Position numbers and translations under genes: made by a program | Shown: positions 28,080 through 31,506 of the stretch, piece after piece | Position numbering within the stretch: the stretch's first letter is position 1 | Layout of the letters: every line of letters starts with the position of its first letter | Assembly (NCBI RefSeq): GCF_002269345.1 | Contig: NZ_CP022889.1 | Coordinates: forward strand, 124,001 to 188,000 | DNA from: Tsuneonella mangrovi | Lineage (GTDB): Bacteria > Pseudomonadota > Alphaproteobacteria > Sphingomonadales > Sphingomonadaceae | Direction of reading: 5' to 3' | DNA length: 64,000 nt | Notes under the pieces: generated by a model | What the model was told of the DNA's origin: nothing | Seen by the model: only the letters and a program-made list of their open reading frames with translations | The model's database searches: none

Positions 28080-28158
28080 GAGATTGCGTTTTGCCTTGTC
28101 GTCTCGCGCACGGACCTCTTGGTCGCGCGCATCCTGTTCAGATCATTTCGTTTTGTCA

Positions 28159-28240
28159 GCCCTTAGGCGGTCTGCCCTGCGCTGGACGCAGGCGAAGGTT
28201 CGCGCCTAAGGGCGCGTAAGTCGAAGCAGGTTTAGGCGCG
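28159..28240 (-). promoter_or_regulatory. Leucine attenuator-like leader RNA of leuA
   Basis: On the leftward transcript three segments can pair alternatively. Segment 1 (28240-28232, cgcgcctaa, inside the leader peptide) is complementary to segment 2 (28210-28201, cttaggcgcg). Segment 2, extended to 28213 (gcccttaggcg), is also perfectly complementary over 11 bases to segment 3 (28169-28159, cgcctaagggc). A smaller 6-bp hairpin (cctgcg/cgcagg) sits inside the second structure. Segment 2 contains the leader stop codon. Such mutually exclusive pairing next to Leu codons is the hallmark of translation-coupled attenuation. A U-run after segment 3 is lacking, so the termination step is not clear. 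Confidence 0.75.
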
Positions 28241-28253
28241 CGAAAACGCTCAT
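28206..28253 (-). CDS. leuL: leuA leader peptide (leucine attenuator peptide)
   Basis: Fifteen-codon reading frame, MSVFARLNLLRLTRP, ending at TAG about 126 bases upstream of leuA. Four of six consecutive residues (7-12) are leucine, encoded by cta, ctg, ctt and ctt. Ribosome stalling at these codons under leucine starvation would cover segment 1 of the leader RNA and free segment 2 to pair with segment 3. The ribosome site is weak (agagac). The peptide has no expected function beyond sensing Leu-tRNA. Confidence 0.78.
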   Translation of the reverse strand: MSVFARLNLLRLTRP

Positions 28254-28403: not shown

Positions 28404-29543
28404 TTGCCGAAACATGATTGGCTGATCGTCGGTGCCGGGTATGTCGGTGCGACGTTGGCGGAACGCATTGCTAGCCAGCTGGGCCAGAAGGTGCTGCTGA
28501 TCGATCGGCGCAACCACATCGGCGGCAACGCCCATGACGTGCGGCAGGAAGATGGCTCGCTGCTGCATCTCTATGGCCCGCACATCTTTCACACCAACAG
28601 CAAGGCGATCTGGGACTATCTCAGCCAGTTCACCGAGTGGCGGCCGTATTTCCACCACGTGCTCGCGCACATCGACGGGCACTACGTGCCGCTGCCGTTC
28701 AACATCAACACGATCGAGGCGCTGTTTCCGCACGGTCTCGCCCAGCGGGCGATCGACGCGCTGGTGGACCGGGTCGGTTTCGGCAAGCGGGTGCCGATCC
28801 TCAAACTGCGCGAGACCGACGATCCGGTGCTGCGCGACCTGGCCGACTTCGTCTACGACAAGGTGTTCCTCAACTACACCAGGAAGCAGTGGGACCTCTC
28901 GCCCGAACAGCTCAACCCCGAGGTGACCGCGCGCGTTCCGATCCTGATCAGCCGCGACAACCGCTATTTCCAGGACGTCTACCAGGCGATGCCGGTCGAT
29001 GGGTACACCGCGATGTTCGAGCGGATGCTCGACCACCCGTTGATCACTGTGGAGCTCGAGGCGGACTACTTCGCCTTGCCGGAAAGCGTGCGTTCGACCC
29101 GCACGATCTTCACCGGCCCGATCGATGAGTTCTTCGGTCACGAGCATGGGGCGCTGCCCTATCGCAGCCTGCGCTTTGACGTGCGACGCGGGAACCAGGG
29201 CGTTGCGCAGCGCGCCGCGACAATCAATTATCCCAACGAGTTCGATTTTACCCGGATCACCGAACAGAGCTATCTCGCACCGCCGACCCGGCAGAGCGAT
29301 GCCAGCATCCAGATCTACGAATATCCGCAAGCCTACACGCCGGGCGAGAACGAACCGTATTACCCGATCCCGACCGAGACTAATCGCAAGCTGCTCAAGA
29401 AGTACCAGGATCTCGCCGACAGGGACGACAGCGGCACGTTGTTCGCCGGACGACTGGCCGACTACAGTTACTACAACATGGACCAAGCCTGCGGACGGGC
29501 GCTGGCGCTGTTCAACAAGGTAATCGCGGGAGAGAAGGGATGA
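28404..29543 (+). CDS. glf: UDP-galactopyranose mutase
   Basis: Flavoenzyme that interconverts UDP-galactopyranose and UDP-galactofuranose, the precursor for galactofuranose in surface glycans. The 379-residue sequence has the N-terminal FAD-binding WLIVGAGYVGA, the GGNAHD stretch, YGPHIFHT, the NYTRKQW segment and the C-terminal LFAGRLADYSYYNMDQ. The start is a TTG at 28404 with gggga six bases upstream; no in-frame ATG exists near it and a stop lies just before. It overlaps the following glycosyltransferase gene by 4 bases, suggesting that the transferase uses galactofuranose or acts on the same glycan. Confidence 0.93.
   Translation: MPKHDWLIVGAGYVGATLAERIASQLGQKVLLIDRRNHIGGNAHDVRQEDGSLLHLYGPHIFHTNSKAIWDYLSQFTEWRPYFHHVLAHIDGHYVPLPFNINTIEALFPHGLAQRAIDALVDRVGFGKRVPILKLRETDDPVLRDLADFVYDKVFLNYTRKQWDLSPEQLNPEVTARVPILISRDNRYFQDVYQAMPVDGYTAMFERMLDHPLITVELEADYFALPESVRSTRTIFTGPIDEFFGHEHGALPYRSLRFDVRRGNQGVAQRAATINYPNEFDFTRITEQSYLAPPTRQSDASIQIYEYPQAYTPGENEPYYPIPTETNRKLLKKYQDLADRDDSGTLFAGRLADYSYYNMDQACGRALALFNKVIAGEKG

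Positions 29544-30432: not shown

Positions 30433-31506
<1,074 letters not shown>

Follow-up and report, generated by a model that had tools for sequence, protein, structure and literature searches.

The leuA gene of Tsuneonella mangrovi is preceded on its own strand by a short leucine-rich reading frame, which raises the question of whether, and through which RNA pairings, a ribosome on this frame could control the gene behind it. The initial annotation of the window, by which we mean the whole stretch of 64,000 nucleotides analysed here, had proposed a ribosome-mediated attenuator in which segment 2 of the leader pairs either with a segment 1 inside the reading frame or with a segment 3 further downstream. 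A comparison of related loci leads us to favour a ribosome-controlled, leucine-sensing translational attenuator of leuA, a reading to which we give a probability of roughly 0.6. The parts supported by this comparison are the leader itself, the helix P2 (segments 2:3), a small hairpin H2 and a base stem P1 predicted between the 5' half of the leader and the leuA start region.

A conserved leucine-rich leader precedes leuA

The minus-strand frame described in the initial annotation as a leucine-rich peptide of 15 codons holds up on inspection: MSVFARLNLLRLTRP has four Leu codons, which are codons 7, 9, 10 and 12 (Table 1). Relatives were drawn from 25 genomes, that of the window included, and 80 named records, giving 105 leuA loci that are not all independent, one pair being identical in the leader region. 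A short frame with an in-frame CGACT[TA]A occurs in 103 of the 105, and the two exceptions are a variant core (L023) and a site masked by N (L074). The 102 distinct leader sequences comprise 74 of class A, ending in WA in 66 cases and in Pro in none, and 28 of class B, the class of the window, ending in RP in 27, with one leader (L043) that fits neither class well. In 101 of the 102, at least three of the final 12 residues are Leu, and the alignment of related upstream regions that had been proposed as a check thus finds the Leu-rich frame kept. Leu codons before the core are often CTT (35.5%) or CTA (19.0%), which make up 8.3% and 1.1% of Leu codons in the leuA genes. A short leader frame with codons for the end product, as in a classical ribosome-mediated attenuator, is therefore present.

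The -10 box of a candidate promoter ends 6 nt upstream of the leader ATG, and in many relatives a TTGC, TTTACA or TGGACA box with a -10-like box stands at a comparable distance from the ATG, with column frequencies that are only moderate. Given this spacing and the similar boxes in relatives, the leader transcript may be leaderless and begin at the leader AUG itself. A consensus scanner reported no promoter. An extended leuA beginning just past segment 3 was considered and found unsupported, as stops close the frame in 15/74 class A and 13/28 class B sequences.

Around the gene, the frame list alone places a long frame (28404-29543) in opposite orientation upstream of leuA. An ilvC-like frame (30433-31452, minus strand) lies near leuA, and between the two are UDP-galactopyranose-mutase-like and glycosyltransferase-like frames on the other strand, all three named by appearance. 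The leuA of one relative (L021; G031 C5 585044-586708) has one TAA stop within the match.

Table 1. Features of the leuA leader region in the window (RNA letters are those of the transcript)
Feature	Position	Strand	Basis or remark
Candidate promoter	28288-28260	-	-35 TTGCCT (28288-28283), 17 nt, -10 CATAGA (28265-28260)
Leader ORF MSVFARLNLLRLTRP, 15 codons	28253-28206	-	Sequence; ATG at 28253, stop TAG 28208-28206 inside segment 2
P1 5' strand, first 11 nt of the leader, AUGA + GCGUUUU	28253-28243	-	Predicted free fold; group tests
P1 alternative register	28245-28236 with 28111-28102	-	Duplex search
Segment 1 CGCGCCTAA, inside the leader	28240-28232	-	Exact 9-bp complement of 28209-28201
Conserved core CGACTTA (codons CGA CTT A..)	28223-28217	-	Locus comparison
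Local hairpin H2, CGCGCC-CUUA-GGCGCG (28216-28211:28206-28201)	28216-28201	-	Pairing in 74 sequences
Segment 2 GCCCTTAGGCG, 5' strand of P2	28213-28203	-	Exact 11-bp complement of segment 3
Inner hairpin within the P2 loop	28192-28176	-	Predicted fold; native vs swapped loop halves
Segment 3 CGCCTAAGGGC, 3' strand of P2	28169-28159	-	Exact 11-bp complement of segment 2
Downstream GC hairpin, competitor of the alternative P1 register	28130-28106	-	Predicted fold
Candidate Shine-Dalgarno AAGG of leuA	28097-28094	-	Sequence; 14-nt spacing, which is long
P1 3' strand, AAAACGC (28092-28086) + UCAU (28081-28078)	28092-28078	-	Predicted free fold; UCAU overlaps the leuA start codon
leuA, 2-isopropylmalate synthase, TIGR00970 type, 559 aa	26400-28079	-	Frame list; NCBIfam score above the TIGR00970 cut-off

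Two mutually exclusive structures at segment 2

The 11 perfect base pairs between segments 2 and 3 were correctly read from the window, and the helix co-varies among relatives. In 74 sequences (the window and 73 named loci) P2 is 90.5% paired and has 26 both-sided cells against 6.2 in shuffles (0/500), with slid controls at 4 or fewer. In 39 diverse sequences, which include Rhizobium, Shinella, Ochrobactrum and other sphingomonad families, both-sided cells number 39 against 11.4 in shuffles (0/500), and 7 of the 11 pairs have changed on both sides. Two weaker measures in the 74 sequences gave 4 both-sided changed pairs against 1.9 in shuffles (13/500) and 12 further pair types against 10.9 (101/500), and the outermost pair of the helix is unpaired in 38/74. 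The two halves of the P2 loop pair better in their native combination than when swapped between species, with z -9.0 in class A and -4.1 in class B. A swap test on segments 2 and 3 themselves gave z -0.5 in class B, where both segments are nearly constant and the test is consequently blind to them. The fold of the window leader taken alone is only mildly unusual (z -2.06, 4/200 shuffles as good), and the case therefore rests on the comparison between loci.

H2 lies within the same stretch and excludes P2. It is 93.7% paired in the 74 sequences, with 14 both-sided cells against 5.8 in shuffles (0/500), figures to be read with the limits that 2 of its 6 pairs vary, that one pair is unpaired in 24/74 and that a control slid by +3 likewise reaches 14 both-sided cells, at 28.8% paired; covariation is stronger for P2 than for H2. 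The pairing of segments 1 and 2 is real in the window but is not conserved, as a Watson-Crick run of at least 7 bp between leader and segment 2 was found in 1 of 102 distinct sequences, namely the window itself. Judged by this comparison, the conserved alternative to P2 is the predicted small hairpin inside segment 2 and not the segment 1 pairing. The attenuator design proposed for the locus thus retains its conserved Leu leader and its mutually exclusive structures and loses the pairing of segment 1 with segment 2, while its dependence on the ribosome is something we infer. A segment 4 in the leuA coding region (CCCTTCGGCC) was also tried as a partner of segment 3 and rejected, its codons varying among relatives.

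A predicted pairing of the leader with the leuA start region

A third pairing, P1, was sought by comparing native duplexes of leader and leuA start with species-swapped ones, positions being counted relative to the second ATG of leuA; the resulting z values rest on 30 to 200 swaps between related rows and should not be read as probabilities. In a first scoring, native duplexes stood above swapped ones with z 8.2 in class A (n=73) and 4.2 in class B (n=27). By energy, class A windows between -42 and +3 gave z -7.8, -7.2 and -9.4, the signal weakening at -51 to -24 (z -2.6) and -15 to +12 (z -2.5), with coding-side control windows from -6 onwards between -1.9 and 1.5; the best value in class B was -3.5. 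Promoter control windows gave z -0.7 and 1.1 in class A and -1.1 and 0.0 in class B. The finest class A cell, leader nt 1-15 with -33 to -15, reached z -13.1 as the strongest of 20 cells tried, the same cell giving only -1.6 in class B, where the best of the 20 was -3.0. Across 40 genomes outside the window's own family, a set with several near-identical rows and some script-set leuA starts that may be wrong, P1 gave z -4.4 and its best window (-30 to -10) -4.6, with both kinds of control, shifted leaders and windows starting at -10 or beyond, staying within -1.6 to 1.6. The pairing of the leader 5' half with the leuA start region is thus the one that stands out in both classes and in the 40 other-family genomes, and it is on this comparison that we propose it.

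Examples of the predicted stem are CGTAACGG:CCGTTACG (L032), CGTATCGG:CCGATACG (L065), CTCGACTGG:CCAGTCGAG (L099) and TATCGCTT:AAGCGATA (L061). Significance in single sequences is modest: class A reaches p at or below 0.05 in 33% of its sequences and class B in 26%, and of 10 plasmid-record loci only 2 give p below 0.05. For the window, the duplex of leader and start region gives p = 0.023 (5000 shuffles). The register of P1 is not fixed, a fixed-register matrix in class A giving z 4.6 at best. Its 5' strand in class A consists mainly of codons 1-5 and not of the Leu run, and the Leu run with the core showed a small excess against the spacer (15.7 vs 14.0 in class A, 17.0 vs 16.3 in class B).

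It had been suggested that the leuA ribosome site is sequestered by a later gcgcgc/gcgcac hairpin. The P1 signal at the leuA start supports the hint as to the target but not the mask, since a spacer hairpin of at least 6 bp is predicted in 17/28 class B but only 2/74 class A sequences.

By eye, the leuA start region GAAGAGAAG of three class B members (L098, L101, L108) can pair with their CTTCTTCTT Leu run, and this pairing resembles, again by eye, what is seen in Microbacterium and on Sinorhizobium meliloti pSymB.

Predicted accessibility of the leuA start

Placing a ribosome on the first Leu codon is predicted to leave the start region more unpaired than in the free RNA in 21/27 class B sequences (lower in 2) and in 38/73 class A sequences (lower in 19), the change in class A being small, from 0.507 to 0.542. 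Compared with a ribosome at the stop codon, the same placement gave higher values in 18/27 class B (5 lower) and 36/73 class A sequences (24 lower). For the Shine-Dalgarno sequence of the window, predicted accessibility rises from 0.45 in the free RNA to 0.69-0.70 with a ribosome on the leader Leu codons; a ribosome at the stop also raises it, to 0.62. With a ribosome waiting for Leu 9 in the window, the first 5 leader bases are predicted to remain paired with the leuA start.

Reach of the leader across Alphaproteobacteria

In the window's own genome a covariance model, R1, has a single strong match, with the opposite strand of that site scoring E 0.03. The best R1 place away from leuA in that genome is G000 C1 687944-688019 (L141), at E 0.08. 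Within the order, R1 matches in 35 of 118 genomes, 31 of them in the window's own family (20 of the 83 unmatched genomes are listed), and all 18 sites that were fetched lie ahead of a leuA-like frame. In five of these loci (L147-L150 and L163), four from three other sphingomonad families and one from the window's own, the leader is followed by another leuA type with the motif FDTTLRDGEQ, as if the leuA gene had been exchanged beneath a constant leader.

A second covariance model, R2, run with strict filters, matches in 45 of 385 alphaproteobacterial genomes, 40 of which are outside the window's own family. leuA, in some cases of another subfamily, is the next gene after the site in 43/43 inspected of the 45, identified by motif in 38 and by eye in five because their motif reads MRDG. 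Among the 40 leaders outside the family, 39 end in Pro-stop, the stop lies inside segment 2 in 38, and CGACTTA is present in 37, a persistence of the core that is partly built in because the models contain it; seven show three or fewer Leu in about 15 residues, with an ambiguous ORF start codon. Of 58 sampled genomes of the class, 23 contain a leuA that scores above the TIGR00973 cut-off; 7 of these 23 yield an R2 match, each time directly before that gene by coordinates. The element is therefore either not general in the class or often beyond the R2 model.

Relation to known leaders

The enterobacterial leucine operon leader (leuL; Rfam Leu_leader) likewise places Leu codons before leuA. The leader region described here differs in having no U-run terminator and no match to Rfam 15 up to E 10, and no Rfam family reached its gathering score in the 64-kb window. 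Nine further loci gave no Rfam 15 match up to E 1, and nine more gave one weak match away from the site. A literature search by titles and abstract openings, with most subscription journals outside its scope, returned no alphaproteobacterial leuA leader of this kind. A 2004 article by Vitreschak in FEMS Microbiol Lett reportedly has proteobacterial attenuators as its subject and may bear on priority.

The actinobacterial LEU element lies upstream of leuA and combines a Leu-run leader, a base stem of the Leu codons with the leuA Shine-Dalgarno sequence and a pseudoknot, with no terminator reported (PMC1262725). Its 2005 description left the mechanism open and proposed a protein-bound reading (Seliverstov et al. 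2005; PMC1262725), and the same paper reports that leader mutations in this actinobacterial relative disagreed with the predictions of classical attenuation (PMC1262725, citing Craster 1999). Within the literature scope given above, the term LEU element together with leuA and a leader was found in PMC1262725 alone and in no later paper. The alphaproteobacterial leader resembles this element (PMC1262725) in its downstream leuA (the next gene in all 43 inspected cases), its leader ORF with a Leu run, a base stem between leader and leuA Shine-Dalgarno that appears in group statistics only, an inner helix and the lack of a terminator. It differs in phylum, in the sequence of P2 and in the class A mask, which is mostly made of the first codons and not of the Leu run. 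Pairing of loop and spacer, as in the LEU-type pseudoknot, gave z -3.6 and -4.4 in class A and 0.3 and 0.4 in class B.

An unfiltered R2 search covered six more loci, four from Actinobacteria and one each from S. meliloti and Cupriavidus. The top three of the resulting 54 matches all lie on leaders: S. meliloti pSymB (L126 353-424, E 0.0099), Nonomuraea (L125 447-521, E 0.052) and Microbacterium (L123 454-528, E 0.17); the Nocardia, Tsukamurella and Cupriavidus leaders do not appear among the best of the 54. Given such weak E-values the alphaproteobacterial leader is not a proven member of the actinobacterial group, and we would call it similar in operation to the LEU element and a probable relative of it. 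We keep kinship at this strength because only 2/10 plasmid-record loci are significant for P1 and the loop and spacer signal is seen in class A but not in class B. Two loci, L198 and L207, carry CTTCTTAGCTGCC and CTTCTTAGCCGCC, respectively, ahead of an alphaproteobacterial-type P2; they look intermediate and are a candidate link between the alphaproteobacterial and actinobacterial groups. Both come from an alphaproteobacterial genus and have a pure Leu run (LLLLLSCP and LLLLLSRP) and a CTTCTTAGC(T/C)GCC core that resembles the one in Microbacterium and Nonomuraea.

Two further systems bear comparison. The trp attenuator of S. meliloti has a leaderless trpL whose AUG is the first codon of the transcript (PMC7298713, PMC10117765). 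The likeness lies in an alphaproteobacterial leader peptide and in the leaderless start that we suggest here; the trp system differs in its Trp codons, its terminator and its control by transcription attenuation (PMC7298713, PMC10117765). In Corynebacterium glutamicum, a leader ORF detected before leuA encodes a peptide with four Leu codons in succession and is filed as an attenuator transcript (PMC4046766). The two leaders are alike in having an ORF before leuA (PMC4046766).

Discussion

Our results suggest a model for how a leader ribosome could control leuA translation. Translation of the leader ORF probably takes place on a leaderless transcript. In the free RNA, the leader 5' half (its first codons and often also its Leu codons) would pair with the leuA Shine-Dalgarno and start region as P1, P2 would fold inside this stem and translation of leuA would then be weak. 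Under a shortage of charged Leu-tRNA, a ribosome stalled on the Leu codons would cover most of the P1 5' strand and leave P2 free to form, and the leuA start would stay open. When leucine is plentiful, the ribosome would reach the stop inside segment 2 and leave, and P1 could re-form. We infer the transcript start, the stalling, the direction of regulation and translation, not transcription, as the level of control.

Control could alternatively be exerted on transcription through Rho, the leader ribosome and the P2/H2 switch setting how much C-rich unstructured RNA is open to Rho before leuA translation begins. The initial annotation had remarked on the missing U-run after the segment 3 arm, and rightly so: the window has none, and the one terminator-like site found by a scanner lies inside leuA (27929-27912). 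A GC hairpin with U-run before the gene, the intrinsic terminator of a classical transcription attenuator, was not found there. T-rich tails within 12 nt of segment 3 are rare, occurring in 2/102 leaders and 3/40 outside the window's own family, which counts in favour of Rho; runs of at least 5 T in 8 nt anywhere before leuA are found in 27/102 and 9/40, and not in the window's leader. The spacer of class A is rich in C and poor in G (C above G in 69/74, median C/G 1.83 vs 1.04 in coding windows) and narrow in length (38-49 nt in 57/74), and it is above all there that Rho would fit. The spacer of class B, to which the window belongs, is however less C-rich (C/G 1.17, C above G in 21/28), and Rho would leave the P1 signal at the leuA start unexplained. 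We regard Rho-dependent attenuation as unlikely, although it survives better than the readings that follow.

A regulatory protein that binds the conserved core and hairpin, with the short ORF secondary, would account for the constancy of the core at synonymous positions (CGA in 102/102 distinct leaders, CTT in 99 and CTA in 3), a constancy to be read with the caveat that the loci were chosen by a pattern containing CGACT. Such a reading has a precedent in the proposal for the actinobacterial LEU element (Seliverstov 2005; PMC1262725). For a protein site, however, the Leu content, the rare Leu codons and a stop kept inside segment 2 (38/40 in other families) would all be superfluous, and we consider this reading improbable. 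Less probable still is an arrest peptide, in which the ribosome would be stalled, according to the leucine state, by the conserved C-terminal R-L-x-x-P that precedes the stop. The Pro-stop ending of 39/40 leaders outside the family and of 27/28 in class B would suit it, but 66/74 class A leaders end in WA and none in Pro. RNA constraint moreover explains much of the pattern, because constancy extends to the codons and P2 includes the Pro codon. Classical transcription attenuation, with 1:2 against 2:3 plus a terminator, has a leader ORF and mutually exclusive helices in its favour and is the least probable of the four, with segment 1 pairing in 1/102 sequences and a T-rich tail in 2/102 and 3/40.

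The translational attenuator of leuA therefore remains our preferred reading. A wider form of it, which we hold to be doubtful, would see an ancient uncatalogued leucine attenuator common to Alphaproteobacteria and Actinobacteria that stays at its locus while the leuA subfamily is swapped, with ribosome pausing at the CGA-CUU core or at R-L-x-x-Pro-stop as part of the leucine sensor. As no Rfam 15 family matched, the leader fills a gap in the catalogue. The comparison separates three pairings, H2, P2 and the stem of leader and leuA start, and suggests that a ribosome on the Leu codons controls leuA at the level of translation. Within one order, a single regulatory leader persists over two different leuA subfamilies.
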